From the NCBI GenBank assembly GCA_017654935.2, contig CM065706.1, positions 17,579,557 through 17,643,556 of the forward strand: a DNA stretch of 64,000 bases, in the 5' to 3' direction. Each line of letters starts with the position of its first letter. Positions within the stretch are counted from its first letter, which is position 1. Source of the stretch: Phymorhynchus buccinoides. Lineage: Eukaryota > Mollusca > Gastropoda > Neogastropoda > Raphitomidae. Shown here piece after piece: positions 28,546 to 57,847 of the stretch. The notes beneath the pieces were generated by a model. The model ran no database searches. It was not told the origin of the DNA and worked only from the letters and a program-made list of their open reading frames with translations. The translations under genes were made by a program, and so were the position numbers.

Positions 28546-31500
28546 GTAAGTTGTGATGATATTAAAAAAAAACCTACTTGAAGGTTCTTTTTAGTTCCTG
28601 AGCGAAGCTTCGGGAAGTATTGTTTTTGTTTTGTCCGTGTGTGTGCGGCTGGCTGGCCGCATTTAAAAAAAACCTGTTGAATCTATTTCAATCACATTTA
28701 CTAATTTGGTATACAAGTTTCAAAGGATATTAGCTATCGGTTGATTGCTTTAGTTTAATTTGAAGGTCAAGGTCATGATGATTAAGGAGACTTGCAAACC
28801 CCAAAACACTTAATTGCTAATATCTCGTGAAGTTTTGCACATATTTCAATGCAATTTTTTTTCACAACGTTTTCTGATGAAAGGGCTATGACTACAGATA
28901 TAACATCAGGGCTCCCAGGGACCCCCATTTGGGGGTCTATGAAGTACTAGAATTCTAAGGGACCCTCTAAAAGAATGTGCAGGGGGTCCCAGGGATGCAC
29001 TAGAAAGTTTACTTTTATTTTTAGCTTTCGCAATGTCACTGGGACCCTCTATCCCGCCTCTAGGGGCCTCTTTACCGTAAGTGAAGGAGTCCCTGGGACC
29101 CCTTGTTTTGCGGGACGATTGGGAGCCCTGAACATAATCATGAATTTGTCTGTGTGCTCGTGCGTGCGTGCGTGTGAATCACGGGGTTCAAACCCCAAAG
29201 CTGTATCTCAAGAACTGTTGCATGGAATCACTTCAAATTTACTGTGGTGGTGCATCACGGTGCACGAAAGGTCCCATGCAAAAATAGTAACCATGCTGAC
29301 CTTGGCCTTAACCCTCTCACTCTGATCAATCGAACCGAGAATCGATCCTATTGCATAAGAGAGGGGGAGTAACTCCGAACATCACACCAAATCTTTTATT
29401 TTAAAAAATCACCCAGAATAAAGTCTAACTCACCTTTCATTTCTGAAAGATGCATATTGAATAGCAATGATGATATTTTCATTCGAAAGCTAACACACTG
29501 TCACACAACAAACCATGAATTGGAGGTAAAAATCCGTAATAGCGCTCCAAACAATCGACCGGGTCAATACTGCTGACGTCACGTGGCAAAAAAACCAAAC
29601 TTTAGCGTCTCCTTTGAAAAATTCATTCACAAAGACTATTGGGTGCTTTCCCTTGCTGTAAAGACCAAAAACCGACCCGGGAGTGTCAGAAACAGGAAGA
29701 ACTAACTTAGTATATTGCATTGTGGGTAGGGAGAAAGTGAAAGTGAACCTACTAGACCTGGCATTCAGCGGCGGCTATCGGGGGTTACGGGATTCTGATA
29801 ATCCATTTTGGACGGGAGGTCCTGGAGACTGCGGGGATCACAGGGTTAAGGTTTGACCTTGAAAACGTAAATTTCTTCATGTGGCCTTATCTTTCACATC
29901 GTTGGACTTGCAATGTTCCAATTTGGTGTGCAAATACATTGGCATATGAAATTCTGAATACTTAGTACAAGAAATGTCAGGGTCACAACGGTTATAGTCT
30001 GCCGATAGAACCGTCTGTAACCGGTCATTTACACATTTTTTAGACATTTCTGATTTTTTTTTGGTGGCAATTGCTCAGTTTCTTGTCATTGGAGTGCAGA
30101 TGCGTCATGCTGCTGTTATGTGCCCAAGTTCAGCCGCTCGGGAACTTATCTCCCGCTTGGTGATACACTTGTTTTTATTATTATTGTTTTTGGGTTTTTT
30201 ACTTTACTTTTATACTATGCTAATCTGCCCAACACTGAAAAGCAATGTTTATTAATGTTTTCATGTCACTGTTAGGCCTTTTATTTTAAATCATTGTTTT
30301 AATTTTTAACATTTGCTGTGAACAGATGTGGTTAAAATGTTGTGGGCATACATGATACAAAGTAAAGATGCCACTCAAGACATATTGTTTTAAGTTGATA
30401 AATGTTAATACTCACTAAGGGCACGTACACAGTACATCCAGATTTTCTGTGTGGAAATAATCAATAAGTAAAAGAAAGAAAACAAAATACACGAATGTGT
30501 ACATATTTCCCCTGGGTCCCAAGGCGGCTCAGAACCCAGGCCTTCCTGCTTTTTGCTTTTTATGTTGTCCAAATTTCACCCTTGAAAAAATTAACGAAAA
30601 CAAAAAACAACACAAAATGTTGTTGACAGTGACTTTTGCCCATGGGAAAGTGAAGGACACCCAGAAACGCAAAATGAAAGTGTCAGCGCTGCACGACACT
30701 AGCCACAAAGGGCCGGACAAGAGGAGGAAAGTGCTGGTAAGTTCCTTCACCAAACTGCACGACCCCAGCCACAAAGGGCCGGGCAAGAGGAGGAAAGTGC
30801 TGGTAAGTTCCTTCACCAAACTGCACGACCCCAGCCACAAAGGGCCGGACAAGAGGAGGAAAGTGCTGGTAAGTTCCTTCACCAAACTGCACGACCCCAG
30901 CCACAAAGGGCCGGGCAAGAGGAGGAAAGTGCTGGTAAGTTCCTTCACCAAACTGCACGACCCCAGCCACAAAGGGCCGGACAAGAGGAGGAAAGTGCTG
31001 GTAAGTTCCTTCACCAAACTGCACGACCACAGCCACAAAGGGCCGGGCAAGAGGAGGAAAGTGCTGGTAAGTTCCTTCACCAAACTGCACGACCACAGCC
31101 ACAAAGGGCCGGACAAGAGGAGGAAAGTGCTGGTAAGTTCCTTCACCAAACTGCACGACCACAGCCACAAAGGGCCGGGCAAGAGGAGGAAAGTGCTGGT
31201 AAGTTCCTTCACCAAACGTTTTTCTTTTGACAGGCAAATGAGGCACAGAGATTGTGTGCAGTGTGTGTGTGTGCGGGATGTGTGTGTGTGTGTGTGCGGG
31301 ATGTGTGTGTGTGTGTGTGTGTAGGCATTGGGGGATGGGGGATGAATGGAATGAAAGAGAGCAAGCTAAGAGAGAGGGGTGTGTGGTTCTGTTCACCTCC
31401 CACCATCTTATTTAAGAGCAGGGGCTAAGATCAACCATGTTTTGAGCATTGGAACATAAATTAAAATGACTATATTTTATGGACTGTAAGAGCATCTCAT

Positions 31501-37500: not shown

Positions 37501-40500
37501 CCCAGCAGGGATGCTGCCCCTCATTCCCCAGCAGGGATGCTGCCCCTCATTCCCCAGCAGGGATGCTGCCCCTCATTCCCCAGCAGGGATGCTGCCCCTC
37601 ATTCCCCAGCAGGGATGCTGCCCCTCATTCCCCAGCAGGGATGCTGCCCCTCATTCCCCAGCAGGGATGCTGCCCCTCATTCCCCAACAGGGATGCTGCT
37701 CCTCATTCCCCAACAGGGATGCTGCTCCTCATTCCCCAACAGGGATGCTGCTCCTCATTCCCCAACAGGGATGCTGCCCCTCATTCCCCAGCAGGGATGC
37801 TGCCCCTCATTCCCCAGCAGGGATGCTGCCCCTCATTCCCCAGCAGGGATGCTGCCCCTCATTCCCCAGCAGGGATGCTGCCCCTCATTCCCCAGCAGGG
37901 ATGCTGCCCCTCATTCCCCAGCAGGGATGCTGCCCCTCATTCCCCAGCAGGGATGCTGCCCCTCATTCCCCAGCAGGGATGCTGCCCCTCATTCCCCAAC
38001 AGGGATGCTGCCCCTCATTCCCCAACAGGGATGCTGCTCCTCATTCCCCAACAGGGATGCTGCTCCTCATTCCCCAACAGGGATGCTGCTCCTCATTCCC
38101 CAACAGGGATGCTGCTCCTCATTCCCCAACAGGGATGCTGCTCCTCATTCCCCAACAGGGATGCTGCTCCTCATTCCCCAACAGGGATGCTGCCCCTCAT
38201 TCCCCAACAGGGATGCTGCTCCTCATTCCCCAGCAGGGATGCTGCCCCTCATTCCCCAGCAGGGATGATGGTGGGGACTAGGCTGCCCCTTCTTCTTGTT
38301 GACTGTGCATGGACACAATTAATACGTTGATTATTTTGCCAGGGGAGGTTCAACCACATAATATGTTGGAAGAAAGGGCCTTAAAGGGGCACACTGATGG
38401 ATGAAGTTTTGCAAGAAACACGTCGAGATCACCAGGAAAACACCCGTCACAGAGATCGCAACACTCACTTCACTCTGGTTTCCTAGAAATCAAACCATCA
38501 AATCAGCGATTCCTCCTTGGCGGAGGTGCTGGAAGTCAAATTCTTTCAGTGAAACCTTTTCAGTAAAACCTTTTTTTTTTAGCCAATAGAAGCACAAGGT
38601 CTATTACTTTATCAGTTCTTGTATCTGCTTTTACACCAAACAAAACTAATTCCTTACTTAACTCCATGTTATGACAATGTTGACATTTGTCTTTGAACAA
38701 ATTCTCAAAGTCGGTCCAAAATATTTTGGGAACAACACAATCATATAACATGTGTGTGAACACTTTTCTAATGGCCGCCTGAGTTTAGACCAAATCGTTT
38801 GCACGAAATTTCCACAATTTCCTTTTTATTTTTATTTTTTAATTTTGTTTATACAGTTTACCAAAAGGAGTTTTGCTCACAACAAAGGACATAGCTCCTT
38901 TTTTTTTTTACTGCACTACAAAGAAGAAAAATCTTCAACCACAATGAGTGGCCTCCACCCACCCCATCCAAAATGGCTTCTCTCTTCAGCAACTCCGCCA
39001 AGGAGGAATCGACGTTTTAACGGTTTGATTTATAGGAAACCAGAGCAAAGTGAGTGTTCCAATCCTTGAAAAGGCTGTCTTTCTGGTGATCTTGACGAGT
39101 TTCTTGCAAAAACTCGTCCATCAGGGTCCACCTTTAAGTAGTCCAGAGAAGGAAATTTGAGAATTAAGAGAAAAGATAGATAAAGAGGATCGTAAATTGG
39201 ATTCACAAAAAAACCACCAACCCAAAACTGGACCCTGCTTTTCATGCTGTCCAGGGTTTTGTAGAAGCACCCATGTATAGAGAATTAACAAAATATTCCT
39301 CTTTGGTCCTGATGATGAACCCAAATGGCAGGGCATACAACTATTCCTCTTTGGTCCTGATGATGAACCCAAATGGCAGGGCATACAACTATTCCTCTTT
39401 GGTCCTGATGATGAACCCAAATGGCAGGGCATACAACTATTCCTCTTTGGTCCTGATGATGAACCCAAATGGCAGGGCATACAACTATTCCTCTTTGGTC
39501 CTGATGATGAACCCAAATGGCAGGGCATAAAACTATTCCAGGTAACTAAGATCATTTTTGTTATAAGGATAAGGATATCATAGAGCTTAAGATCACAATG
39601 AAAATTGTTAGAAGTGTCCCCAGTTTGCATTTACTCATCTACCCAAATGGTTAGTCATATAAACTTACTCCTATGAATTCACATTTTTTTTATGGGGGAG
39701 TACATTTATAATTATTATGGGTTGCCGACTTGTTTCTGTGTTGTCATTATAGGTTGTACGTGGCGGAGGTGAATAAAACCACGGGTCACATGACTCTGTT
39801 CCCTGCCCAGATGTTTCACCTTCACCCCGAGTTTCAAGGTCAGCACCTCCGCTTAGGAGGCAAAATCTTTGCTTTTCTTTTCTTAAACTTGTTTTTTTCT
39901 TAGGCAAAATCTTTGTGTTGGCTTGTTGGTCTGTCTGTATGCGAATGAAACAGTGCCCCTGAAGTTGTTGGTGGATCAAGTGGATTTTCAAGGACATTTG
40001 TACTGGTGTCTAATAGGTATCACCCAAAGAGCATTGTTATCTTACAGTTTGGAGTCTGATCTGGAGTAAGGCAGTCAAATGAGCTGTTTAGGTGGAGTTG
40101 TGGTCCTTAGTTCTTGACACCAGGTGGCGTTTCATTTGAAGGCACTCACTGAGTCACTCTCTTTCTCTCTCTTTCTCATTCTCCTCTCTTTCTCCTCTTT
40201 CACCTGTGCACAGTAAAAATAGATGTTGCCTTTTATTCGACCACAGGGATGTAAAATAAGCCAGTAGAGGGATCTCCTGACAAGCCACCAGAAACTTTCA
40301 TTCATAATTTTTTGGGGGGGGTTGAAAATGTAACCTTATTTTTCTTTATTAGCAAATTTACTGTACAAAGTTCTGGAAGTACAGTGGAGTCCGGGTAAAA
40401 CGAATTTTAACGGAACACAGACTCAGTTCGTTGTATCAGGATTTCGTTATACATGTACATGTACAATGTATGTTGAAAACAAAAACAGTTCAAACACTCG

Positions 40501-43500
40501 CCAATGATAACCGAAAACATAAACTTGACCAGTTTGGATCGTCTGTCTTAATCACGGGATGTACAAGGCTTGAAGAAGTTCAGCAGTGTTGTCTGACGCT
40601 GATCTGTTTTGGCACACTTTTCAACAAGTTTGTCCATTAAGTGACAACACATCACACAAATTTAGTTTGTTATAGGCTTTCACGAGCTTTTCGATCTTTA
40701 TTTTGAGCGCGAATTGTAAAGCGACCTTGAGAAACCGAATGATCTGTAGGAAGCCTAGGCCTAGCAGACGACCCAGTGTGAATCTAAATGAGTTCACGCA
40801 TGCGCAGTTCATATTTTCCAACTTCCTTCCTCTTGACAACACGTTCTAGCTTGGAGTTTGAAGGCCTAGGTTTTTGCAGCGCATCGCACAGGCTGAGTTC
40901 GTTATAGGCTATTTTTCCAAGTAAATAAAATTATCCTGGGGCGTAGAACATGAGTTCGTAAAAAGCGGATGTTCGTTATTTCAAAAGGACTTTTTGTTCG
41001 TTATACCCATGGCTTTGCAAGTGACAAATAGAAGGGCATTTGCCGGGAAATTGAAGTCAGTTCGTTAATCGCGAAATTTCGTTAAAAGCGAGTTCGTTAT
41101 AGTTGGACTCCACTGTAGATGTGGAAACCCCACGCGCAGTCCGTAAATAAGTGAAAGGAAGAAGGAAACAAATAAACGCACGTGTCCGTATTTCCCCTAA
41201 TCCGTGTATCCTCCCCTCCCTCCTCCTCGTGGTTTGATGAATATTCGTGCTGATTTGGTTGGTCATGGTAACCATTTGATAGATTTTATTGAAGCATCAT
41301 GACTTAATTTTTTAATTAATAGAAATATGGTAGCAGTTTAATTCTTTTATTAGACGACTGAATTATTCTTAGTGGTTTGATGACTATTCATGGTGATTGA
41401 GGTATGAAGGATGGTTTAAATGTTCATGATGATGTGATGAACGTTTGTGGTGATATGAATTTCATTATTCATTGTGGTTTCATGACTGCTCATGGGTGAT
41501 TTGATGTTGATTCATTGTGGTTTCATGACTGCTCATGGGTGATTTGATGTTGATTCATTGTGGTTTCATGACTGCTCATGGGTGATTTGATGTTGATTCA
41601 TTGTGGTTTCATGACTGCTCATGGGTGATTTGATGTTGATTCATTGTAGTTTCATGACTGCTCATGGGTGATTTGATGTTGATTCATTGTGGTTTCATGA
41701 CTGCTCATGGGTGATTTGATGTTGATTCATTGTGGTTTCATGACTGCTCATGGGTGATTTGATGTTGATTCATTGTAGTTTCATGACTGCTCATGGGTGA
41801 TTTGATGTTGATTCATTGTGGTTTCATGACTGCTCATGGGTGATTTGATGTTGATTCATTGTGGTTTCATGACTGCTCATGGGTGATTTGATGTTGATTC
41901 ATTGTGGTTTCATGACTGCTCATGGGTGATTTGATGTTGATTCATTGTGGTTTCATGACTGCTCATGGGTGATTTGATGTTGATTCATTGTGTTTCATGA
42001 CTGCTCATGGGTGATTTGATGTTGATTCATTGTAGTTTCATGACTGCTCATGGGTGATTTGATGTTGATTCATTGTGGTTTCATGACTGCTCATGGGTGA
42101 TTTGATGTTGATTCATTGTGGTTTCATGACTGCTGATGGGTGATTTGATGTTGATTCATTGTGGTTTCATGACTGCTCATGGGTGATTTGATGTTGATTC
42201 ATTGTGGTTTCATGACTGCTCATGGGTGATTTGATGTTGATTCATTGTGGTTTCATGACTGCTCATGGGTGATTTGATGTTGATTCATTGTGGTTTCATG
42301 ACTGCTCATGGGTGATTTGATGTTGATTCATTGTGGTTTCATGACTGCTCATGGGTGATTTGATGTTGATTCATTGTGGTTTCATGACTGCTCATGGGTG
42401 ATTTGATGTTGATTCATTGTGGTTTCATGACTGCTCATGGGTGATTTGATGTTGATTCATTGTGGTTTCATGACTGCTCATGGGTGATTTGATGTTGATT
42501 CATTGTAGTTTCATGACTGCTCATGGGTGATTTGATGTTGATTCATTGTAGTTTCATGACTGCTCATGGGTGATTTGATGTTGATTCATTGTGGTTTCAT
42601 GACTGCTCATGGGTGATTTGATGTTGATTCATTGTAGTTTCATGACTGCTCATGGGTGATTTGATGTTGATTCATTGTGTTTCATGACTGCTCATGGGTG
42701 ATTTGATGTTGATTCATTGTAGTTTCATGACTGCTCATGGGTGATTTGATGTTGATTCATTGTGGTTTCATGACTGCTCATGGGTGATTTGATGTTGATT
42801 CATTGTGGTTTCATGACTGCTCATGGGTGATTTGATGTTGATTCATTGTGGTTTCATGACTGCTCATGGGTGATTTGATGTTGATTCATTGTGGTTTCAT
42901 GACTGCTCATGGGTGATTTGATGTTGATTCATTGTGGTTTCATGACTGCTCATGGGTGATTTGATGTTGATTCATTGTAGTTTCATGACTGCTCATGGGT
43001 GATTTGATGTTGATTCATTGTAGTTTCATGACTGCTCATGGGTGATTTGATGTTGATTCATTGTGGTTTCATGACTGCTCATGGGTGATGCTCATGGGTG
43101 ATTTGATGTTGATTCATTGTGGTTTCATGACTGCTCATGGGTGATTTGATGTTGATTCATTGTGGTTTCATGACTGCTCATGGGTGATTTGATGTTGATT
43201 CATTGTGGTTTCATGACTGCTCATGGGTGATTTGATGTTGATTCATTGTGGTTTCATGACTGCTCATGGGTGATTTGATGTTGATTCATTGTAGTTTCAT
43301 GACTGCTCATGGGTGATTTGATGTTGATTCATTGTAGTTTCATGACTGCTCATGGGTGATTTGATGTTGATTCATTGTAGTTTCATGACTGCTCATGGGT
43401 GATTTGATGTTGATTCATTGTGGTTTCATGACTGCTCATGGGTGATTTGATGTTGATTCATTGTGGTTTCATGACTGCTCATGGGTGATTTGATGTTGAT

Positions 43501-46500
43501 TCATTGTAGTTTCATGACTGCTCATGGGTGATTTGATGTTGATTCATTGTGGTTTCATGACTGCTCATGGGTGATTTGATGTTGATTCATTGTAGTTTCA
43601 TGACTGCTCATGGGTGATTTGATGTTGATTCATTGTGGTTTCATGACTGCTCATGGGTGATTTGATGTTGATTCATTGTGGTTTCATGACTGCTCATGGG
43701 TGATTTGATGTTGATTCATTGTTGGTGGTTGCAGGAGAGGTGCAGAGGGAAGGCCTCGAGCTGGAGTCCATGTCATTTGGTGAAAAGGTCAGTGGTTTTG
43801 ACTGGAGCGAATGGGACAGTGTGTGGATGCCTCGTGCCTCCATACAGGGAGCTGGACGACCCCGCCCCATCCACGAGTCTCTCCCCGTGGGGATACCAGG
43901 GGGTCTTTGCAAAAAAATAGTTCCCCCACCTTCTGGAAGTTCTGTACTTGAAACTTTCCCTAATCTGCCACTCTCTGTGACTCTACCTTTTCCCTTTGCT
44001 TTCTATCATCTACCGGTACTATGTTTCTGACTTATTGGCCCATTCTCTTGCCTTATTTTCCAAAAAATACTCCAAATAATTTTTCTTCTTTGAGCTCCTC
44101 AGAAATCTGAATGTGTCGGCTGTATGCAGCGGGGAGACCAGTGAAAACTGAAAACTGGACACATACGTGCCTTACCAATTATGGCCATATGGCCTGGGAA
44201 CGCAGAAGAAGAAGAAGATTGGAGCGACAAGGGTCATCATTCCATTTCTTCATTGCCTCTGGCATCAAACTCACATACTATCCTTTTGCCAATTCTTCTT
44301 GAAAAAACTACCATGGCAACCAAGTAAACAAATGCAACTTTTTGCCTCCAGACATTTTTCAGGCAACAATTTCTGTGAAACTTACCTGGGTAAAGAAAAG
44401 ATGGCGTCTGCAATACTGTGAACCCTCTAAGACGTGCTTCAAATAAGGCCTTAACTTATCTCCCAAAACCAACAACATACGGTCACTGGATAACAGATCC
44501 TGATTTCATGCCTTTTAGTGACAGGGGTGTGAAGTCAGTGTGGTGCAGCAATGTCACATTGTGTGAAGTCAGTGTGGTGCAGCAATGTCACATTTATGCA
44601 TTGTGGGCAAGGCATCTTTGCGAACAAATTCATGCATAGAGTCTTCAGGATTGGCCATCTTGTCATCTGGATCTTATAAAATCAAACATTTCTGCCAACA
44701 TTGATGGTAGACACAGACACACACACATACACACATGCGTGCATGCATGCATGCATAATTCCTCCCCCTTACATCCCCACCTACCCCCACCCCATTTTAT
44801 TTCCAATGACTTTTCTCACGTGCCTGTGCCCTTCAGGCGGACTTACTGACGGACGCCTTTGGCAGTCGGAAGGAGAAGCGTGCGGTGCAGCAGCGACAGA
44901 GGAGCAAGGTCGCTGAGAAGGCCGTGACCTCTGCCATGGGGTCGGCACTTGACCTTGCCCTCACCACGCACCAGGCACAGCCAGGTAAGGCATCTAATCG
45001 ACTTTGTCCATCAATCAACCAATCAATCAAATCAAAATCACTTTATTATCTCTTACATGCCAGTATAACGGACACATTGGCATTCAGCATGCATAAATAT
45101 AAATTTGTTTCTAGGATGAAGCAAGTCACATGAGTAATACATATACATCAGGACATTCAGCATGTATGAGTATAATAAAGTACATATTTTAGGGTTACAC
45201 AGGTCACATGAGTAATACATAGATGCATCAGGACATTGACATTCAGCATGCATGAGTATAATAAAGTACATATTTTAGGGTTACACAGGTCACATGAATA
45301 ATGCAATAAAAAAAAAAGTATTTTATTTATACTTTTATAGTGCCTATTCGCACAGTGGGGATATGAGTGTTTTTATTTCTCCTGTGTGTTGGGTGTGTGT
45401 GTGTGTGAAGTTTGTATGTTGCAGCCTGTGTATGTAATGTGTTGCAATCTATACATGTGTGTGTGTGTGTGTGTGTGTGATTTAGCATCTATGTGTGATA
45501 TTCTCTGTGTGTGTTCAATGAGTGAGTGTGTGTTTGCCTGTCTGTGTGTGTTTGCATGCAAGTATGAGTACATGTACATGCGTGTATGTATGCATGTTTG
45601 TATGTGTGTGTGTGCGTGCTCGCGTGTCCGTTGAAGAGCGCCTTCATTATTTGTGCGTGTGTCATTGTGTGCACAGCCACAGACCCCCAGGCCTCCTCCT
45701 CCTCCTCAGCCATCCCCCCCCACAACAAAGACGCCCAGACTGCTGCCGAGGTGTACAGCCTGCACCACAGTGAGTTCACCTCTCATAATACAGGTGTACA
45801 GCCTGCACCACTGAGTTCACCTCTCATAATACAGGTGTACAGCCTGCACCACAGTGAGTTCACCTCATAATACAGGTGTACAGCCTGCACCACAGTGAGT
45901 TCACCTCTCATAATACAGGTGTACAGCCTGCACCACAGGTGTACAGCCTGCACCACAGTGAGTTCACCTCTCATAATACAGGTGTACAGCCTGCACCACT
46001 GAGTTCACCTCTCATAATACAGGTGTACAGCCTGCACCACAGTGAGTTCACCTCATAATACAGGTGTACAGCCTGCACCACAGTGAGTTCACCTCTCATA
46101 ATACAGGTGTACAGCCTGCACCACAGTGAGTTCACCTCTCATAATACAGGTGTACAGTTCACCTCATAATACAGGTGCCACAGTGAGTTCACCTCATAAT
46201 ACAGGTGTACAGCCTGCACCACACAGGTGTACAGCCTGCACCACAGTGAGTTCACCTCATAATACAGGTGTACAGCCTGCACCACAGTGAGTTCACCTCT
46301 CATAATACAGGTGACAGCCTGCACACAGTGAGTTCTCATAATACAGGTGTACAGCCTGCACCACAGTGAGTTCACCACAGTGAGTTCACCTCTCATAATA
46401 CAGGTGTACAGCCTGCACCACTCATAATACAGGTGTACAGCCTGCACCACAGTGAGTTCACCTCTCATAATACAGGTGTACAGCCTGCACCACAGTGAGT

Positions 46501-49500
46501 TCACCTCTCATAATACAGGTGTACAGCCTGCACCACAGTGAGTTCACCTCTCATAATACAGGTGTACAGCCTGCACCACAGTGAGTTCACTCATAATACA
46601 GGTGTACAGCCTGCACCACAGTGAGTTCACCTCATAATACAGGTGTACAGCCTGCACCACAGTGAGTTCACCTCTCATAATACAGGTGTACAGCCTGCAC
46701 CACAGTGAGTTCACCTCTCATAATACAGGTGTACAGCCTGCACCACAGTGAGTTCACCTCTCATAATACAGGTGTACAGCCTGCACCACAGTGAGTTCAC
46801 CTCTCATAATACAGGTGTACAGCCTGCACCACAGTGAGTTCACCTCATAATACAGGTGTACAGCCTGCACCACAGTGAGTTCACCTCTCATAATACAGGT
46901 GTACAGCCTGCACCACAGTGAGTTCACCTCTCATAATACAGGTGTACAGCCTGCACCACAGTGAGTTCACCTCTCATAATACAGGTGTACAGCCTGCACC
47001 ACAGTGAGTTCACCTCATAATACAGGTGTACAGCCTGCACCACAGTGAGTTCACCTCATAATACAGGTGTACAGCCTGCACCACAGTGAGTTCACCTCTC
47101 ATAATACAGGTGTACAGCCTGCACCACAGTGAGTTCACCTCTCATAATACAGGTGTACAGCCTGCACCACAGTGAGTTCACCTCTCATAATACCTGTACA
47201 GCCTGCACCACAGTGAGTTCACCTCTCATAATACAGGTGTACAGCCTGCACCACAGTGAGTTCACCTCTCATAATACAGGTGTACAGCCTGCACCACAGT
47301 GAGTTCACCTCTCATAATACAGGTGTACAGCCTGCACCACAGTGAGTTCACCTCTCATAATACAGGTGTACAGCCTCACCACAGTGAGTTCTCATAATAC
47401 AGGTGTACAGCCTGCACCACAGTGAGTTCACCTCTCATAATACAGTGTGTGCACCACAGCCTGTACAGCCCACAGTGAGTTCACCTCATAATACAGGTGT
47501 ACAGCCTGCACCACAGTGAGTTCACCTCTCATAATACAGGTGTACAGCCTGCACCACAGTGAGTTCACCTCTCATAATACAGGTGTACAGCCTGCACCAC
47601 AGTGAGTTCACCTCATAATACAGGTGTACAGCCTGCAGCCCACAGTGAGTTCACCTCTCATAATACAGGTGTACAGCCTGCACCACAGTGAGTTCACCTC
47701 TCATAATACAGGTGTACAGCCTGCACCACAGTGAGTTCACAGCCTGCACCACAGTGAGTTCACCTCATAATACAGGTGTACAGCCTGCACCACAGTGAGT
47801 TCACCTCTCATAATACAGGTGTACAGCCTGCACCACAGTGAGTTCACCCTCATAATACAGGTGTACAGCCTGCACCACAGTGAGTTCACCTCTCATAATA
47901 CAGGTGTACAGCCTGCACCACAGTGAGTTCACCTCATAATACAGGTGTACAGCCTGCACCACAGTGAGTTCACCTCTCATAATACAGGTACAGCCTGCAC
48001 CACAGTGAGTTCACCTCTCATAATGTACAGCCTGCACCACAGTGAGTTCACCTCATAATACAGGTGTACAGCCTGCACCACAGTGAGTTCACCTCATAAT
48101 ACAGGTGTACAGCCTGCACCACAGTGAGTTCACCTCATAATACAGGTGTACAGCCTGCACCACAGTGAGTTCACCTCTCATAATACAGGTGTACAGCCTG
48201 CACCACAGTGAGTTCACCTCTCATAATACAGGTGTACAGCCTGCACCACAGTGAGTTCACCTCAGTGAGTTCACCTCTCAATACAGGTGTACAGCCTGCA
48301 CCACAGTGAGGTGTACAGCCTGCACCACAGTGAGTTCACCTCTCATAATACAGGTGTACAGCCTGCACCACAGTGAGTTCACCTCATAATACAGGTGTAC
48401 AGCCTGCACCACAGTGAGTTCACCTCTCATAATACAGGTGTACAGCCTGCACCACAGTGAGTTCACCTCTCATAATACAGGTGTACAGCCTGCACCACAG
48501 TGAGTTCACCTCTCATAATACAGGTGTACAGCCTGCACCACAGTGAGTTCACCTCATAATACAGGTGTACAGCCTGCACCACAGTGAGTTCACCTCTCAT
48601 AATACAGGTGTACAGCCTGCACCACAGTGAGTTCACCTCTCATAATACAGGTGTACAGCCTGCACCACAGTGAGTTCACCTCTCATAATACAGGTGTACG
48701 GAGAAAATGTTTTAAAGAAAAGATGCCCTAGCATATTTCTATTGTTTAAGCCAACTTTAGAACCCCTCTCTCTCAGCCGGTTGGCATATTTTTGTTGATC
48801 ACACCTTTATTTTTATTCTGATATACCTTTATTTTGAAAATGAGTCTGTGTTTCTGTCTTCAGTCATAGGGCCCGTAGAGCTGGACAGCTTAGTTCATGC
48901 AGCAGAAGTCTTCATGAACTGCTCGTCTGACACGCTGAGAGGATGGACAGAGACAAAAGAGTAAGTACAAAAATGGTCTAACCTGGTCTCAGTGATTTTT
49001 CTACAGGACATTTCTTTCAGACAAACATTAAACTGATTTGATTGTGGCCCCCCAAAAAAAAAATTAAAAAATTATGACATAAATTGCTTTTACGTGTTAG
49101 GGCATGTGCACATAAACCCATGTGCAGATCCCATCCACAAATAAAGGAAAGGAAAGTGAGAAGCAGGTCGATGGGTTTCCGCCTGTATGTGCACACTGCT
49201 TTACATTTCTTACTTCCAGATTTGTATTTTTGCGGGTTGCAAATGGGTTTCCGTACCGAATTTGGACATATATGTGCACACAGCCTAAAACTTTAAACTT
49301 TTATTGATTGGTTGATATTCTTTTGCTGTTTACGGACCATCTGTCTTCCCGGAACAGACTGATTCTTTCTTAAAACTTTTATTCCTTCTCTGTGAGCGAT
49401 TTATATTTTCTGCTTTAACCCTTTGACTGCGACAATGTTACTGATCAACATCAACATAAAAAAATTTTTTATGTCAAAATTGCCTAAGTTTTGCACAAAA

Positions 49501-51427
49501 TTATGTAATTACTTCCAAAACTTGCAATGACGTTTGCCTGATGTCTTTCATCCTGAAAATTTGTCCCGATTTCTTTTCCTGCTATTAACTGTAAAAACTG
49601 GAAGCCATCCTGAAGCCACAAGTTTTGACACTCAAAAAAACGGCAGCCACGAGTTTCGGCACTCCAAAAAAACAGGCCACTATGCCAAAACTGGAAGTCA
49701 CAAGTTTCGGCACTCCAAAAAAACAAGCCACTAGTTTTGGCACTCCAAAAACCTGAAGCCACGAGTTTTGGCACTCCAAAAGCTGGATTTCAGGCGTGTT
49801 CCGGAAAAGTAGCAGCTCAATGACTATTAATGTGTGATTAATCACATGCTTGTGATTTGACTGTTTTCAACATTAAACACCTTAGAAATGCTGTATGTTG
49901 TTGTTGTTGTTGTTACTATGTGTGATGTTTGTTTGCTGTGCCAGGTACCCCCTCTCAGTGGTGTCTCATCTGTATGTTGTTGTTGTTGTTGTTGTTGTTA
50001 TTATGTGTGATGTTTGTTTGCTGTGCCAGGTACCCCCTCTCAGTGGTGTCTCATCTGTATGTTGTTGTTGTTGTTGTTGTTGTTATTATGTGTGATGTTT
50101 GTTTGCTGTGCCAGGTACCCCCTCTCAGTGGTGTCTCGTCTGTATGTTGTTGTTGTTGTTGTTGTTACTATGTGTGATGTTTGTTTGCTGTGCCAGGTAC
50201 CCCCTCTCAGTGGTGTCTGTCTGTATGTTGTTGTTGTTGTTGTTACTATGTGTGATGTTTGTTTGCTGTGCCAGGTACCCCCTCTCAGTGGTGTCTCATC
50301 TGTATGAATGTTTGGTGTTGCTGTTGTTGTTGTTGTTGTTGTTGTTATTATGTGTGATGTTTGTTTGCTGTGCCAGGTACCCCCTCTCAGTGGTGTCTCG
50401 TCTGTATGTTGTTGTTGTTGTTGTTGTTACTATGTGTGATGTTTGTTTGCTGTGCCAGGTACCCCCTCTCAGTGGTGTCTCGTCTGTATGTTGTTGTTGT
50501 TGTTGTTGTTACTATGTGTGATGTTTGTTTGCTGTGCCAGGTACCCCCTCTCAGTGGTGTCTCATCTGTATGTTGTTGTTGTTGTTGTTGTTGTTATTAT
50601 GTGTGATGTTTGTTTGCTGTGCCAGGTACCCCGTCTCAGTGGTGTCTCATCTGTATGTTGTTGTTGTTGTTGTTGTTGTTATTATGTGTGATGTTTGTTT
50701 GCTGTGCCAGGTACCCCGTCTCAGTGGTGTCTCATCTGTATGTTGTTGTTGTTGTTGTTGTTGTTATTATGTGTGATGTTTGTTTGCTGTGCCAGGTACC
50801 CCCTCTCAGTGGTGTCTCGTCTGTATGTTGTTGTTGTTGTTGTTGTTACTATGTGTGATGTTTGTTTGCTGTGCCAGGTACCCCCTCTCAGTGGTGTCTC
50901 GTCTGTATGTTGTTGTTGTTGTTGTTGTTACTATGTGTGATGTTTGTTTGCTGTGCCAGGTACCCCCTCTCAGTGGTGTCTCGTCTGTATGTTGTTGTTG
51001 TTGTTGTTGTTACTATGTGTGATGTTTGTTTGCTGTGCCAGGTACCCCCTCTCAGTGGTGTCTCGTCTGTATGTTGTTGTTGTTGTTGTTGTTATTATGT
51101 GTGATGTTTGTTTGCTGTGCCAGGTACCCCCTCTCAGTGGTGTCTCATCTGTATGTTGTTGTTGTTGTTGTTGTTGTTACTATGTGTGATGTTTGTTTGC
51201 TGTGCCAGGTACCCCCTCTCAGTGGTGTCTCATCTGTATGTTGTTGTTGTTGTTGTTACTATGTGTGATGTTTGTTTGCTGTGCCAGGTACCCCCTCTCA
51301 GTGGTGTCTCGTCTGCGGGTGATGCCCTTAGGGGAGCAGCAGCGCGGGGAGCGGGCCTGCCTGCTGATGTATCTGCACTACATGATCACCTTGTTCCGCT
51401 TCAAGTCGGACCAGATCAAGAAACGAG
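28491..51427 (+). CDS. POLR1E: POLR1E (RPA49/PAF53) gene, nine exons, 3' part missing
   Basis: The product is an RNA polymerase I subunit. With POLR1G it forms a TFIIF-like dimer that aids initiation and elongation on rDNA in the nucleolus. Exons: 28491-28545, 30630-30736, 32420-32493, 39753-39838, 43735-43787, 44837-44984, 45677-45769, 48864-48960, 51288-51427; all have GT/AG borders and every phase agrees (853 nt, ~284 residues). Family landmarks: THGK-like FAHGKVKD, VAESDKLAYRGDNFG, NKTTGHMTLFPAQMFHLHPEF, LLTDAFGSRKEKRAV, AEVYSLHHI and the LMYLHYMI helix. Residues 1 to about 120 form the dimerisation domain; the linker and the start of the winged-helix region follow. The C-terminal ~120 residues are not found before the assembly gap. 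Introns hold at least seven minisatellites, three of them copying splice junctions. Confidence 0.92.
28546..28906. other. POLR1E intron 1, left part
   Basis: Intronic. A phrase GAGCGAAGCTTCGGGAAG lies near 28600 and the rest is AT-rich. No exon was seen. Confidence 0.45.
28907..29130. mobile_element. hAT-type MITE with 5-bp target duplication
   Basis: The ends CAGGGCTCCCA and TGGGAGCCCTG are perfect 11-bp inverted repeats, flanked on both sides by AACAT (28902-28906 and 29131-29135). The CAGGG start and 5-bp duplication fit the hAT5-like group. The internal sequence repeats phrases such as AGGGACCC and GGGGTCC in both orientations. It sits in POLR1E intron 1. Confidence 0.85.
29308..29849. 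mobile_element. piggyBac-type MITE (542 bp)
   Basis: TTAA lies at both ends (29308-29311 and 29846-29849) with termini CCCTCTCACTCTGATC and, inverted, CCCTGTGATCCCCG. The interior is non-coding. It is in POLR1E intron 1. The termini differ from those of 17639-17882, so this is another family. Confidence 0.7.
29850..30629. other. POLR1E intron 1, right part
   Basis: AT-rich intron ending in ATGTTGTTGACAG, the acceptor of exon 2. The pyrimidine tract is weak. No other feature was seen. Confidence 0.5.
30630..30736 (+). CDS. POLR1E: POLR1E exon 2 (to its first donor)
   Basis: The exon is 107 nt, enters in phase 1 and leaves in phase 0. It encodes V then TFAHGKVKDTQKRKMKVSAL and HDTSHKGPDKRRKVL. 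This matches the RPA49 pattern FSNGKL...NPRKRNQRIL just before AAETDRLSYVG. The donor is GTGCTG|GTAAGT. The last 48 nt plus 18 nt of intron are tandemly repeated, and seven further copies of the same donor follow in frame, so the true exon end among eight candidates cannot be settled by eye. Confidence 0.85.
30689..31216 (+). repeat. 66-bp in-frame minisatellite duplicating the exon 2 donor, 8 copies
   Basis: The unit runs CTGCACGACCCCAGCCAC, AAAGGGCCGG(G/A)CAAGAGG, AGGAAAGTGCTG|GTAAGT, TCCTTCACCAAA. Donors follow 30736, 30802, 30868, 30934, 31000, 31066, 31132 and 31198. Each unit is 22 codons with no stop, so the frame is preserved whichever donor is used. GGACAAG and GGGCAAG units alternate strictly, showing growth as 132-bp dimers; CCCCAGCC changes to CCACAGCC in the last three. 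Confidence 0.95.
31256..31322. repeat. GT-rich microsatellite
   Basis: (GT)n blocks separated by GCGGGAT phrases, directly after the 66-bp array in intron 2. Confidence 0.95.
31323..32419. other. POLR1E intron 2: dispersed repeat pieces
   Basis: CCTTGCCTTGCCTTG lies near 31566. The segment 31850-32160 shares AAGATGGCAACACCATGTAAA and the GATTGGTTCAGTGGTTAGGC phrase with 9090-9790. An ACGC/CACA-rich tract lies at 32165-32245. Confidence 0.5.
32420..32493 (+). CDS. POLR1E: POLR1E exon 3
   Basis: The exon is 74 nt with phase 0 in and 2 out. The acceptor is CATGTTGCAG|GTTGCAG and the donor ACAGA|GTGAGT. It encodes VAESDKLAYRGDNFGPLSAP then EQST. This aligns with the highly conserved RPA49 block AAETDRLSYVGNNFG. 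The acceptor is itself a small tandem (GTTGCAG twice), so a 7-nt shifted acceptor exists but would break the frame. Confidence 0.92.
32494..32996. other. POLR1E intron 3, left part
   Basis: Mixed intronic sequence; nothing was recognised. Confidence 0.4.
32997..33177. mobile_element. Tigger/pogo-type MITE (TA target site)
   Basis: The ends TACAGTCAAACCTCG and GAGGTTCCACTGTA are imperfect inverted repeats with TA outermost. The CAGT-start termini and TA duplication fit pogo/Tigger elements. It is immediately followed by the 48-bp array. Confidence 0.7.
33195..35657. repeat. 48-bp minisatellite, ~51 copies, in POLR1E intron 3
   Basis: The unit runs GATGTGTCTGACATGATGTC, AT(G/T)TACTTCAACTCAAATGG, TCAGCC(G/A)T. 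Because 48 is divisible by 3, long frames of 185-306 codons appear, broken only where TGACATGACATG adds 5 bp (near 33700, 34520, 35437, 35487 and 35590). Point variants (CATGTAC/CATTTAC, CGTGATG/CATGATG) are mosaic. Nothing suggests translation. Confidence 0.97.
35788..36968. mobile_element. hAT-type non-autonomous element (~1.2 kb)
   Basis: The ends CAGTGTTTCCCATA and TATGGGAAACACTG are perfect 14-bp inverted repeats, flanked by CTGAT on both sides (35783-35787 and 36969-36973). Subterminal parts share GTCCCAGGGAC/GTCCCTCTATG phrases. The CAGTGTTTCCC terminus is typical of hAT elements. A (GA)n/G-run lies at 36000-36026. The interior holds a 110-codon frame (36120-36452) with no recognised transposase motif. 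Confidence 0.8.
36120..36452 (+). CDS. 110-codon open frame inside the hAT-like element
   Basis: It starts MMPFTSLKERLDAAAFSSVK and contains a basic centre (KEKPGCQTRKTKANRL) and an acidic, hydrophobic end (LDLIPTILQVADDV). No hAT dimerisation motif, zinc-finger pattern or catalytic residue set was seen. It may be a remnant of captured or transposase sequence, or chance. Confidence 0.2.
   Translation: MMPFTSLKERLDAAAFSSVKLAKTVQIWSTKKSDPKLEALHSREQAFRSFWNDRTCVCFRKEKPGCQTRKTKANRLTAVARSENRVQSFDMEKLGWLDLIPTILQVADDV
36974..37198. other. POLR1E intron 3; ends in a G-run
   Basis: Mixed sequence ending in an 18-base G-run (37181-37198) that directly abuts the 26-bp array. Confidence 0.6.
37199..38272. 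repeat. 26-bp minisatellite, ~41 copies, in POLR1E intron 3
   Basis: The unit is CATTCCCCAGCAGGGATGCT GCCCCT, with two variant sites (AGCAGG/AACAGG, GCCCC/GCTCC). All three forward frames are open because the unit has no stop in any frame, which makes three 355-372 codon phantom frames. AACAGG/GCTCC variants cluster at 37680-37760 and 38020-38220, showing segmental amplification. Confidence 0.97.
38281..39290. mobile_element. Dispersed repeat split by a TTAA insertion
   Basis: 38281-38380 plus 39138-39200 match 55380-55910 in order: TTCTT...GCATGGACACAATTAATACG, ATTATTTTGCCA, GAAAGAAAGGGCC, then AGTAGTCCAGAGAAGG and TTTGAGAATTAA. At 55845 the same sequence runs uninterrupted as GGGCCTTGAGTAGGCCAGAG. 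The family is otherwise unclassified. Confidence 0.7.
38385..39133. mobile_element. TTAA-flanked DNA transposon with long inverted ends (749 bp)
   Basis: TTAA lies on both sides (38381-38384 and 39134-39137). The inverted ends include CTGATGGATGAAGTTTTGCA and TGCAAAAACTCGTCCATCAG, extending over about 55 bp with a shared GATCACCAG block. A further internal inverted pair is CTCCTTGGCGGAG against CTCCGCCAAGGAG. An uninterrupted paralogue of the target at 55845 confirms the boundaries. No intact transposase is present. Confidence 0.82.
39290..39538. repeat. 48-bp minisatellite, 5 copies
   Basis: The unit runs AACTATTCCTCTTTGGTCCT, GATGATGAACCCAAATGG, CAGGGCATAC. Copies are almost identical. It lies in intron 3, about 0.2 kb before exon 4. 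The final partial copy ends AACTATTCCAG|GTAACT. Confidence 0.95.
39539..39752. other. POLR1E intron 3, end
   Basis: Intronic sequence ending in GTCATTATAG, the acceptor of exon 4. Nothing else was recognised. Confidence 0.5.
39753..39838 (+). CDS. POLR1E: POLR1E exon 4
   Basis: The exon is 86 nt with phase 2 in and 1 out. The acceptor is GTCATTATAG|GTTG and the donor TTTCAAG|GTCAGC. It encodes LYVAEVNKTTGHMTLFPAQM then FHLHPEFQ. This is the diagnostic RPA49 strand VGILNKTSGQMEVYDAELFNMQPLF in vertebrates, at the end of the dimerisation domain. Confidence 0.95.
39839..40379. other. POLR1E intron 4, left part
   Basis: Mixed intronic sequence with a CTCTTTCTC-rich patch at 40155-40200. Confidence 0.45.
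40380..41117. mobile_element. pogo/Tigger-type non-autonomous element (738 bp)
   Basis: The ends TACAGTGGAGTCC and GGACTCCACTGTA are perfect inverted repeats with TA outermost (40380-40381 and 41116-41117). Subterminal GTTCGTTAT and ACGAACT-type phrases recur, typical of pogo-like MITEs. It lies in POLR1E intron 4. Confidence 0.85.
41118..41465. other. POLR1E intron 4, between pogo element and array
   Basis: AT-rich, with diverged forerunners of the array phrase (GTGGTTTGATGACTATTCATGG near 41370), suggesting the 43-bp array arose from local sequence. Confidence 0.55.
41466..43722. repeat. 43-bp minisatellite, ~52 copies, abutting the exon 5 acceptor
   Basis: The unit runs TTGATTCATTGT(G/A)GTTTC, ATGACTGCTCATGGGTGATT, TGATG. 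Copies are nearly identical, with the G/A variant in mosaic and a 42-bp variant near 41990 and 42680. The last copy stops 12 bp before the exon 5 acceptor, so the branch-point region of intron 4 lies within repeat sequence. Confidence 0.97.
43735..43787 (+). CDS. POLR1E: POLR1E exon 5
   Basis: The exon is 53 nt with phase 1 in and 0 out. The acceptor is GGTGGTTGCAG|GAGAGG and the donor GAAAAG|GTCAGT. It encodes G-EVQREGLELESMSFGEK, aligning with vertebrate SDVSVESELALESQTKTYREK, the short linker after the dimerisation domain. Confidence 0.85.
43915..44215 (+). mobile_element. LINE 3'-end fragment, copy 3
   Basis: The same family as 1020-1650 and 10545-10855 (inverted): TAGTTCCCCCACCTTCTGG, CTGACTTATTGGCCCATTC, TTTGAGCTCCTC, then GGCCTGGGAACGCAGAAGAA with a GAA-rich tail. 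This copy is uninterrupted and defines the empty site for the SINE at 1184. Confidence 0.78.
44216..44836. other. POLR1E intron 5, right part
   Basis: It contains a 31-bp direct duplication (GTGAAGTCAGTGTGGTGCAG at 44530 and 44561) and a CA/TGCA-rich patch at 44712-44756. It ends GTGCCCTTCAG, the acceptor of exon 6. Confidence 0.55.
44837..44984 (+). CDS. POLR1E: POLR1E exon 6
   Basis: The exon is 148 nt with phase 0 in and 1 out. The acceptor is TGCCCTTCAG|GCGG and the donor CAGCCAG|GTAAGG. It encodes ADLLTDAFGSRKEKRAVQQR, then QRSKVAEKAVTSAMGSAL and DLALTTHQAQP. The [TE]AFGS-K-x-KRA block with the following basic helix is the best conserved linker motif of RPA49 (EAFGTTKQKRALNTRRMNRV in vertebrates). 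Confidence 0.96.
44985..45676. other. POLR1E intron 6: short tandem duplication and GT-rich tract
   Basis: 45070-45305 holds three diverged ~80-bp copies (CATTCAGCATG...AGTATAATAAAGTACATATT...GGTCACATGA). 45390-45640 is GT-rich with TGTATG variants. It ends GTGTGCACAG, the acceptor of exon 7. Confidence 0.7.
45677..45769 (+). CDS. POLR1E: POLR1E exon 7
   Basis: The exon is 93 nt with phase 1 in and 1 out. The acceptor is GTGTGCACAG|CCAC and the donor CACCACA|GTGAGT. It encodes ATDPQASSSSSAIPPHNKDA then QTAAEVYSLHH; codon ATC (I) is completed by exon 8. This matches LYLPPCYDDAAKPEDVYKFEDLLS in vertebrates, where PP and xDVY are conserved. The final 19 nt and the donor are the seed of the large array that follows. 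Confidence 0.92.
45751..48699 (+). repeat. 43/41-bp minisatellite copying exon 7's 3' end with splice sites, ~69 copies
   Basis: The unit runs CTCATAATACAG|GTGTACAGCC, TGCACCACA|GTGAGTTC, ACCT. It equals the last 19 nt of exon 7, its GTGAGT donor, and a pyrimidine-containing CACCTCTCATAATACAG acceptor-like stretch. 41-bp units lack one CT. Some units are truncated or rearranged (near 46160, 46300-46380, 47445-47480, 48260-48320). The last unit ends at 48699 without a donor. A 19-nt inclusion would shift the frame. Confidence 0.96.
48864..48960 (+). CDS. POLR1E: POLR1E exon 8
   Basis: The exon is 97 nt with phase 1 in and 2 out. The acceptor is TCTGTCTTCAG|TCAT and the donor AAAAGA|GTAAGT. 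With exon 7 it reads HHI-IGPVELDSLVHAAEVF, then MNCSSDTLRGWTETK. This fits the vertebrate segment DLLSPAEYEALQSPSEAF...TSEEILKM, the entry to the winged-helix part. Its junction with exon 7 proves that the true donor is the first array copy or an equivalent one. Confidence 0.9.
48961..49899. other. POLR1E intron 8, left part
   Basis: TTAACCCTTTGACTGCGACA at 49418-49437 looks like one end of a piggyBac-type MITE, but no partner end was found. 49605-49790 holds about five diverged copies of a ~35-bp phrase (GCCACAAGTTT(T/C)GGCACTCC AAAAA). Confidence 0.5.
49900..51315 (+). repeat. 82/85-bp minisatellite copying exon 9's 5' end with its acceptor, 17 acceptors
   Basis: The unit runs TACTATGTGTGATGTTTG, TTTGCTGTGCCAG|GTACC, CCCTCTCAGTGGTGTCTCGT, CTGTATG, then (TTG)5-8. 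It carries the acceptor GCTGTGCCAG and the first ~30 nt of exon 9. Acceptor copies fall at about 49945, 50029, 50114, 50195, 50272, 50377, 50459, 50541, 50626, 50711, 50796, 50878, 50960, 51042, 51124, 51209 and 51287. Length variation is mainly in (TTG)n. The last copy runs into the real exon. Confidence 0.96.
51288..51427 (+). CDS. POLR1E: POLR1E exon 9 (last recognised)
   Basis: The exon is 140 nt with phase 2 in and 1 out. The acceptor is GCTGTGCCAG|GTAC and the donor AAACGAG|GTCAGC. It encodes YPLSVVSRLRVMPLGEQQRG, then ERACLLMYLHYMITLFRFK and SDQIKKR. This aligns with vertebrate EALKSLPSDVESRDRQARCIWFLDTLIKFRAHRVVKRK, a helix of the winged-helix region. The following family block (PHIINTKLLKHF) is not found downstream in the window. 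Confidence 0.92.
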
Positions 51428-51654
51428 GTCAGCACCATATCCGTGTGACCCCCCCACCCCTCCCGGTCTCAAAGTGCCACCCGTGTCTGTGTCTTGTGCC
51501 CCCGTCTCTATGTCCCCGTGTTTATGTGTCCCCTTGGGTTCTTCTTCTTCTTGGACGTGTATGGCCACAATCAATACGCTGATCATTTTGCCATAGAACC
51601 ATGGGGAGGGGGGGTCAATATGCTGATCATTTTGCCATAGAACTATGGGGGGTG
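51428..51654. other. POLR1E intron 9 start, with one unit of the 69-bp dispersed repeat
   Basis: 51538-51600 reads TTCTTCTTGGACGTGTATGG, CCACAATCAATACGCTGATC, ATTTTGCCATAGAACCATGG, the same phrase arrayed at 55376-55830. A partial second unit follows at 51615-51645. Confidence 0.75.
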
Positions 51655-52945
51655 TGGCGGCACGGATTGTCTCCGCTGCACAAATTGTCTCCGAGACAAT
51701 CCGTGCAGGGAGACAATCCGTGCCGCCTAAGACAGCACGGATTGTCTCCGCTGCACGGTTGTCCACCTGTGTCGACCCTTACAGCATGGATTGTCTCCGC
51801 TGCATGGTTGTCCACCTGTGTCGACCCTTACAGCACGGATTGTCTCCGCTGCACGGTTGTCCACCTGTGTCGACCCTTACAGCACGGATTGTCTCCGCTG
51901 CACGGATTGTCCACCTGTGTCGACCCTTACAGCACGGATTGTCTCCGCTGCATGGTTGTCCACCTGTGTCGACCCTTACAGCACGGATTGTCTCCGCTGC
52001 ACGGTTGTCCAACTGTGTCGACCCTTACAGCACGGATTGTCTCCGCTGCACGGTTGTCCACCTGTGTCGACCCTTACAGCACGGATTGTCTCCGCTGCAC
52101 GGTTGTCCACCTGTGTCGACCCTTACAGCACGGATTGTCTCCGCTGCACGGTTGTCCACCTGTGTCGACCCTTACAGCACGGATTGTCTCCGCTGCACGG
52201 GTTGTCCACCTGTGTCGACCCTTACAGCACGGATTGTCTCCGCTGCACGGATTGTCCACCTGTGTCGACCCTTACAGCACGGATTGTCTCCGCTGCACGG
52301 TTGTCCACCTGTGTCGACCCTTACAGCACGGATTGTCTCCGCTGCACTTTGTCCACCTGTGTCGACCCTTACAGCACGGATTGTCTCCAGCACGGATTGT
52401 CTCCGCTGCACGGTTTGTCCACCTGTGTCGACCCTTACAGCACGGATTGTCTCCGCTGCACGGTTGTCCACCTGTGTCGACCCTTACAGCACGGATTGTC
52501 TCTGCTGCACGGTTGTCCACCTGTGTCGACCCTTACAGCACGGATTGTCTCCGCTGCACGGTTGTCCACCTGTGTCGACCCTTACAGCACGGATTGTCTC
52601 ATTGCACGGTTGTCCACCTGTGTCGACCCTTACAGCACGGATTGTCTCCGCTGCACGGTTGTCCACCTGTGTCGACCCTTACAGCACGGATTGTCTCCGC
52701 TGCACGGTTGTCCACCTGTGTTGACCCTTACAGCACGGATTGTCTCCGCTGCACGGTTGTCCACCTGTGTCGACCCTTACAGCACGGATTGTCTCCGCTG
52801 CACGGTTGTCCACCTGTGTCGACCCTTACAGCACGGATTGTCTCCGCTGCACGGTTGTCCACCTGTGTCGACCCTTACAGCACGGATTGTCTCCGCTGCA
52901 CGGATTGTCCACCTGTGTCGACCCTTACAGCACGGATTGTCTCCA
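51655..52945. repeat. 49-bp minisatellite, ~25 copies, presumed POLR1E intron 9
   Basis: The unit runs TGTCTCCGCTGCACGGTTGT, CCACCTGTGTCGACCCTTAC, AGCACGGAT. The first 100 bp hold an inverted arrangement (GGATTGTCTCCG...CGAGACAATCC). Some units have CACGGATTG in place of CACGGTTG. The unit is CpG-containing and stop-poor, so frames of up to 573 codons appear; these are not genes. Confidence 0.96.
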
Positions 52946-55085: not shown

Positions 55086-55087
55086 CG

Positions 55088-55097
55088 GACACACACA

Positions 55098-55155
<58 letters not shown>
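55088..55155. repeat. (AC)n microsatellite
   Basis: An AC tract with one AT interruption at 55104; it marks the 5' truncation of the LINE. Confidence 0.97.
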
Positions 55156-55156
<1 letters not shown>

Positions 55157-55189
55157 GTGTGTACGCACACTCACGCAGGCATGCTTGCA

Positions 55190-55375
55190 TGGATAAACAG
55201 AAACAGAGGGACACAGAGAGAGACAGTGACAAAGAGAAAGTGACAGAAAAAGAAGAGAAAGAAAGCTAGTACTGGAGACAATCCGTGCAGCGGAGACAAT
55301 CTGTGCCGTCTTAGGCGGCACGGATTGTCTCGGAGACAATTTGTGCAGCGGAGACAATCCGTGCCGCCACAGGGG
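55190..55375 (-). repeat. Inverted copy of the 49-bp array edge and CT-rich flank
   Basis: The reverse complement reads the CT-rich flank of 52946-53035 and the inverted-arrangement start of the 49-bp array (GCACGGATTGTCTCCGCTGC, ACAAATTGTCTCCGAGACAA), as at 51655-51770. Confidence 0.85.

Positions 55376-57813: not shown

Positions 57814-57847
<34 letters not shown>

Follow-up and report, generated by a model that had tools for sequence, protein, structure and literature searches.

We analysed a 64,000-nucleotide (nt) stretch of the genome of the neogastropod snail Phymorhynchus buccinoides (assembly GCA_017654935.2, contig CM065706.1, positions 17,579,557 to 17,643,556 of the forward strand), here called the window, whose own numbering is used throughout. 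The feature under study is a long minisatellite in the gene POLR1E, which spans the end of a coding exon and repeats its splice donor many times over. An initial annotation, made from the letters alone, had assigned the array to exon 7 of POLR1E and described its unit as an exon end, a GTGAGT donor and an acceptor-like stretch. The domain match, the exon reconstruction and the counts given below bear this out.

The joined pieces of exons 7–9 match PF06870 (A49-like RNA polymerase I factor, 8.1e-11), which identifies the gene as POLR1E/RPA49. A protein search returned three relatives, all of them predicted models (P0001–P0003): the RPA49-like proteins of Babylonia areolata (60% identical) and Littorina saxatilis (50%), and one protein without a name (44%). 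The best of the three, P0001, is that of Babylonia, also a neogastropod. With related proteins as queries, tblastn placed nine collinear exons between 28491 and 51427, all with GT donors and, for exons 2–9, AG acceptors. Rows of less than 22 bits were not taken up, and from the rows found with a human query only the collinear ones were kept among many chance matches. Joined together, the nine exons give an open product of 284 amino acids (aa) that is 64% identical to P0001 over 281 positions and needs no extra repeat copy. Exons 1 and 5 have weak tblastn rows of their own (E 0.29 and 0.39) and are placed by these together with the open joined product. By tblastn, the last 30% of the Babylonia protein has no convincing match within the window; the one in-order row for P0001 residues 282–400 (57755–57877, 22.7 bits, E 1.2) is leucine/serine-rich and was taken as chance. 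The protein piece of exons 7–9 had no match in PDB at 0.001, and no known RNA family matched the window at gathering scores. The features discussed are collected in Table 1.

Table 1. Exons, repeat arrays and splice signals of POLR1E, in window positions (TRF, Tandem Repeats Finder)
Feature	Position	Strand	Basis
Exon 2	30630..30736	+	homology to P0001, splice signals
Second junction array (exon 2), 66-bp unit x8, 97% matches, no indels	30689..31217	+	TRF, direct counting
Fourth array, 43-bp unit, ~52 copies, intronic	41467..43722	+	TRF
Exon 5	43735..43787	+	weak tblastn row (E 0.39), open joined product
Coding exon 7, 93 nt, phase 1 to phase 1	45677..45769	+	homology to P0001; splice signals read directly
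Exon 7 array, 64 units, mostly 43 or 41 bp	45749..48699	+	TRF, direct counting
Exon-proximal donor GTGAGT, implied by related proteins	45770..45775	+	comparison with P0001–P0003, joined product
Next GTGAGT, +84 nt, in frame and open	45854..45859	+	counts, joined product
Partial copy AGGTGTAC at the end of the array, downstream member of the presumed 8-bp seed repeat (upstream member at 45749–45756, in exon 7)	48692..48699	+	
Exon 8	48864..48960	+	homology to P0001, splice signals
Third junction array (exon 9), ~85-bp unit, 17 copies of GCTGTGCCAG/GTACC	49896..51315	+	TRF, direct counting
Exon 9	51288..51427	+	homology to P0001, splice signals

The minisatellite at the end of exon 7

A chain of overlapping TRF rows, with periods mostly of 41–43 bp, covers the array from end to end, and its earlier placement holds. 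Exon 7 comes seventh among the coding exons as reconstructed here; its repeated part is its final 19 nt together with the donor, and most units consist of this exon end, the GTGAGT donor and the acceptor-like stretch CATAATACAG. Intron 7 is 3094 nt long, of which the array takes up 2930. It has 64 unit starts, each beginning GTGTACAGCC; the 19-mer GTGTACAGCCTGCACCACA occurs 59 times, in 56 cases with GTGAGT directly behind it, and there are 67 GTGAGT, 65 CTCATAATACAG and 65 CATAATACAG in all. The tandem array seen by the initial annotation is thus real and its figure of about 69 copies slightly high, since the counts run from 64 to 67 depending on the item counted. An AGGT motif is found in 63 units, in the context CAG/GTGTACAG (slashes mark exon–intron boundaries or their copies), and CAGGTGTACAG likewise occurs 63 times. 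Acceptor and donor lie no more than 30 nt apart in 58 pairs, at a distance of exactly 19 nt in 52 of these.

The units are highly alike. One exact 43-mer accounts for 32 of the 64 and one exact 41-mer for a further 13, and the 32 units of length 43 hold no substitution in 1376 bases; the other units show indels or are chimeras (substitutions were not scored in those). At the 5' end the units follow the pattern AdBAxAdBAx, which indicates multi-unit duplication, and two units share one 2-bp deletion inside the duplicated block. Owing to a 2-bp deletion the copy in unit 2 has lost its GTGAGT, so that the next donor after that of the exon itself lies 84 nt further on. At this size the array cannot be put down to chance, and it is either young or strongly homogenised. 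Outside 45701–48799 a search of the window for further copies of the unit gave short matches only, the best being 20 bp at 90% (E 0.10).

We consider it quite improbable that the assembler multiplied or scrambled a few real copies. Misassembly could also give indels and chimeras next to 32 substitution-free units of 43 bp, yet the variants are defined and recurrent, as in the 13 copies of one 41-mer and the 2-bp deletion common to two units of a duplicated block, and the window holds many other arrays, which differ in their divergence. While the array itself is fairly safe, the precise number of its copies is not.

Further junction arrays in the same gene

Two other arrays of POLR1E also cross an exon boundary; neither they nor the existing class of repeats to which we compare them below figured in the initial annotation. 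At exon 2 the unit comprises 48 nt of the exon end and a GTAAGT donor (TG/GTAAGT, which is not AGGT). Each added copy amounts to 22 aa, and nowhere else could copies extend the protein without running into a stop. At exon 9 the unit holds the acceptor and the first 28 nt of the exon, so that the exon-proximal copy is the last one. Use of the upstream acceptors leads to a stop within the joined exons 7–9 in 15 of 16 cases; the one closest to the exon, at a distance of 79 nt, runs through exon 9 without a stop, though in the wrong frame. In both arrays an intact copy adjoins the exon body. The exon 9 unit also contains a TGT microsatellite.

The fourth large array ends 13 nt before the exon 5 junction, with the AG itself outside, and was not counted as crossing. 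Another lies in intron 3 (37205–38267, 26-bp unit, ~41 copies), and its consensus unit includes an acceptor-like TTCCCCAG. Seven arrays together occupy 10914 of the 22937 bp between the start of exon 1 and the end of exon 9, as summed from TRF rows.

The placement of arrays relative to junctions was compared with chance for the 11 arrays with a period of at least 20 and a length of at least 200 bp inside 28491–64000 (TRF rows); shorter arrays (e.g. 45125–45302 and 49613–49781), overlapping TRF rows and microsatellites were left out. Random placement was modelled as 11 single units in the collapsed gene span, with P given for three or more crossings. Three of the 11 arrays cross a junction against 0.46 expected (P 0.009), and two of ten when the exon 7 array is removed (P 0.066). 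A version confined to exons 1–9 was added because the end of POLR1E beyond exon 9 is out of view; it gives three of seven arrays against 0.45 expected (P 0.007), or two of six without the exon 7 array (P 0.053). All these tests are post hoc, and the enrichment of arrays at the junctions of POLR1E is suggestive.

Splicing of the copies and origin of the array

The initial annotation took the view that POLR1E must tolerate, suppress or exploit its copies, and rightly so. It also spoke of perfect 5' splice sites. This applies to the intron half, where GTGAGT is good; as a whole, ACA/GTGAGT agrees with CAGGTAAGT at five of nine positions and is, tied with exon 3, the weakest of the nine donors of the gene. 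On the plus strand of the window 1013 GT sites score as high, of which 134 are in the array. This weakness speaks against the array as a functional regulator, whose donor copies would act as U1 decoys or delay the removal of intron 7, so that copy number would set POLR1E output. Although 67 GTGAGT do lie within one 3.1-kb intron, and the high unit identity suggests a recent and probably variable array, eight of the 11 large arrays that lie within the span of the gene cross no junction, so the growth of arrays here needs no splice site. We regard such a regulatory role as highly improbable.

Spacing bears on whether each unit is an independent micro-exon, as had been proposed. Of the 67 distances from a donor to the next acceptor, 40 measure 24 nt and 17 measure 22 nt (57 together). 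The usual minimum length of an animal intron is about 40–50 nt. Successive copies are therefore not separated by introns long enough to splice, neighbouring copies cannot both be exons, and the proposal finds no support. The accompanying rule on reading frames holds: of n = 0 to 7 added 19-mers, n = 0, 3 and 6 leave the frame open and n = 1, 2, 4, 5 and 7 run into a stop. Taken as alternative ends of exon 7, just two of the 67 donors keep exons 7–9 open, namely the first and the one at 45854, which adds 28 aa; the other 65 lead to a stop. At the joints of exons 2/3, 7/8 and 8/9, P0001–P0003 are free of extra copies.

Structure sets the array apart neither as RNA nor as DNA. Folding that could mask the exon 7 copies is not special (z -0.61 for one unit and -1.52 for two, with 16 of 200 shuffles folding equally well), and the same is true of the RNA units of exon 2, exon 9 and intron 4 (z 0.29, 0.53 and -0.34) and of DNA structure in one and two units of the exon 7 array (z -0.83 and -1.12). 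Local folding leaves all donors with an accessibility near zero, which gives no guide to their use: 0.0044 for the first, and a mean of 0.0024 for the others (range 0.0001–0.0071).

From genomic sequence alone, we think it rather probable that the array is a mirage-type minisatellite which has grown at an exon edge and is tolerated by splicing rather than exploited. Exon definition would pair the acceptor of exon 7 with the nearest donor, that is, with the copy adjoining the exon body; the 19-nt copies, with their gaps of mostly 22–24 nt, would be unable to serve as consecutive exons; and most wrong donor choices would bring a premature stop and the removal of the transcript. Tolerance would thus come from the use of the first donor, from the spacing of the copies and from the stops behind 65 of the 67 donors.

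The chief competing explanation is that splicing makes stochastic, infrequent use of the copies, as it does of the dual-specific sites (AGGT) in polyubiquitin UBC, so that a spread of isoforms is produced: an addition of 84 nt (28 aa) at exon 7 and multiples of 22 aa at exon 2. In its favour are the AGGT in 63 exon 7 units (CAG/GTGTACAG), the CCAG/GTACC of the 17 copies at exon 9, and the report that human introns spliced at dual-specific sites are 8.4-fold enriched in tandem-repeat genes (excerpt of PMC10809524). All eight donors of exon 2 are in frame and open over exons 1–4, as is the exon 7 donor at 45854 over exons 7–9, and the acceptor copies equal the gene's own acceptors in pyrimidine richness. 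However, the frame stays open at just two of the 67 exon 7 donors, none of the three related proteins has repeated peptides at these joints, and comparable repeats in amphioxus have been reported without any disturbance of splicing, as far as the excerpts of PMC3087553 and PMC3902484 go. We hold stochastic use to be unlikely.

Several observations count against a tolerated, ordinary minisatellite. The first donor and its copies share the same ACA/GTGAGT and are equal in strength, which rules out strength as the reason for its use. Nor are the acceptor copies weak: 42 of 65 have 11 pyrimidines in 16 positions, within the span of 7 to 12 in 16 of the gene's eight acceptors, and strength is ruled out as the reason for ignoring them too. 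Position and spacing alone must therefore decide. Skipping one unit gives an intron of 65–67 nt in 43 of 66 cases; such introns might be spliceable, and every second copy may then be used as an exon. At exon 2, where every donor is in frame, stops would not purge mis-splicing. The excess of junction crossings is something that plain neutrality does not explain, though it weakens to P 0.066 once the exon 7 array is set aside. The number of exon 7 copies could be wrong if the assembly is wrong at this site. As for the seed proposed below, 364 of 1174 windows of 150 bp hold an 8-bp direct repeat spaced by 20 bp or more, so that possible seeds are common and this one is not special, and the exon 2 array ends with an overlap of at most 1 bp and shows no such repeat.

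The edges of the exon 7 array are an 8-bp direct repeat: it starts AGGTGTACAGCC on the exon side and ends AGGTGTACGGAG on the intron side. The exonic member of the repeat, AGGTGTAC, starts 21 nt before the exon end. In the pooled non-array sequence of the gene, repeats of at least 8 bp at a 43-bp spacing occur at none of 11787 positions. The partial copy of 8 bp that terminates the array fits a seed made up of two pre-existing direct copies, and AGGTGTAC was probably that seed, judging from the two edges. We infer a single-copy ancestor with one AGGTGTAC in exon 7 and another in intron 7, about 43 bp further downstream. Slippage between these two, or unequal repair, would have duplicated a segment with the exon end and the donor, and later slippage and block duplication would have raised the number to about 64 and lengthened intron 7 from about 0.2 kb to 3.1 kb. 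The acceptor-like CATAATACAG would then be ordinary intron sequence from the left of the second AGGTGTAC, which duplication put before the exon copy, rather than part of an evolved micro-exon.

Relation to mirages and other boundary repeats

In amphioxus, minisatellite-like tandem duplications over intron–exon boundaries are known as 'mirages' and have been described in Adh3, the globins BflGb6 and BflGb9, PGBD5 and TnC, at both 5' and 3' boundaries; in the excerpts of the two papers, the data are said to suggest that mirages leave regular splicing intact (PMC3087553, PMC3902484). As in amphioxus, the snail units span an exon–intron boundary (at the donors of exons 7 and 2 and the acceptor of exon 9), many carry AG and GT splice signals (67 GTGAGT and 65 CATAATACAG in the exon 7 array), and an authentic copy of the boundary is left in the gene, giving the open 284-aa product in genomic sequence. 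The homogeneity of the units, seen in one haplotype, is compatible with the length instability of mirages. Read in this way, the POLR1E arrays fall within the structural definition of a mirage. They differ from the amphioxus cases, as given in those excerpts, in their mollusc host, in the ~64 copies at exon 7 against 2–7 in the globins and PGBD5, and in the presence of three junction arrays in one gene against two in PGBD5; in addition, the exon 7 units hold acceptor-like and donor sequence 19 nt apart.

Other systems are more distant. According to the excerpt of PMC2812944, human segmental duplications contain internal tandem repeats at exon–intron boundaries, with a unit of ~30 bp and about four copies on average. 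Minisatellite expansion at boundaries is common to both; the human cases are in recent paralogs whose transcripts show changed splicing, whereas the snail gene is single and known here from its genomic sequence. In polyubiquitin UBC, AGGT sites are spliced stochastically over a tandem array (excerpt of PMC10809524). The exon 7 array is similar in having AGGT in its tandem units (63 CAGGTGTACAG), but UBC units are whole in-frame coding monomers, while exon 7 repeats 19 nt of exon in units of 43 or 41 bp and out of frame, with two of 67 donors open. The 66-bp unit of exon 2 does keep the frame, but its donor is not of the AGGT type. Finally, the Rogers-type model of intron gain by tandem duplication of an AGGT proto-splice site, named in the excerpt of PMC3087553, likewise has an exonic AGGT at the edge of the duplicated unit; in the snail, unlike in that model, an existing intron has been lengthened and no new one is implied. 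Among the literature matches listed, only the two amphioxus papers use 'mirage' for such repeats, and the excerpts of PMC4039745 (intronic minisatellites of C. elegans) and PMC3862624 (Conus introns) describe no boundary repeats. Measured against those matches, what appears to be new is the mollusc host, the copy number and the presence of three arrays within a single gene.

The remainder of the window holds further features of note. Two minus-strand Ku_N frames (PF03731) lie at 3288–3587 (1.9e-06) and 7978–8190 (0.0012, which falls short of the curated cut-off); both we take to be, probably, exons of XRCC5/Ku80; a 63-bp array (5153–7639) sits between them, with no junction seen at it. Fragments of reverse transcriptase (RVT_1), presumably of the long interspersed nuclear element (LINE) type, occur on the minus strand at 54784–55170 (2.1e-13) and 15380–15721 (8.6e-07, just under the cut-off). 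In the list of open reading frames (ORFs), 51583–52944 and 55076–55822 show, by eye, similar peptides on opposite strands, perhaps an inverted repeat-bearing pair or a mobile element. A run of N at ~55997–56506 (500 N in the whole window) is probably a scaffold gap. A series of plus-strand ORFs spans 60033–62538, two parts of which gave no Pfam match when tested, with a 134-bp x3 repeat at 61921–62324, and a 33-bp array at 63000–64000 reaches the end of the window.

The arrays of POLR1E suggest that mirage minisatellites are not a peculiarity of amphioxus. It is possible, though doubtful as yet, that splice junctions are preferred birthplaces of minisatellites in the snail lineage as well. This would be a second, independent case, in which introns are lengthened outward from exon edges and spare splice sites are supplied; those at exon 2 keep the frame and could extend RPA49 by repeats of 22 aa. 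The exon 7 array provides a natural test of exon definition, as dozens of identical donors are on offer and only position tells the right one. One gene would hold three such tests: the donors of exon 7, the 17 acceptors of exon 9 and the eight in-frame donors of exon 2. Together, the POLR1E arrays offer a model for the growth of introns from the edges of exons.

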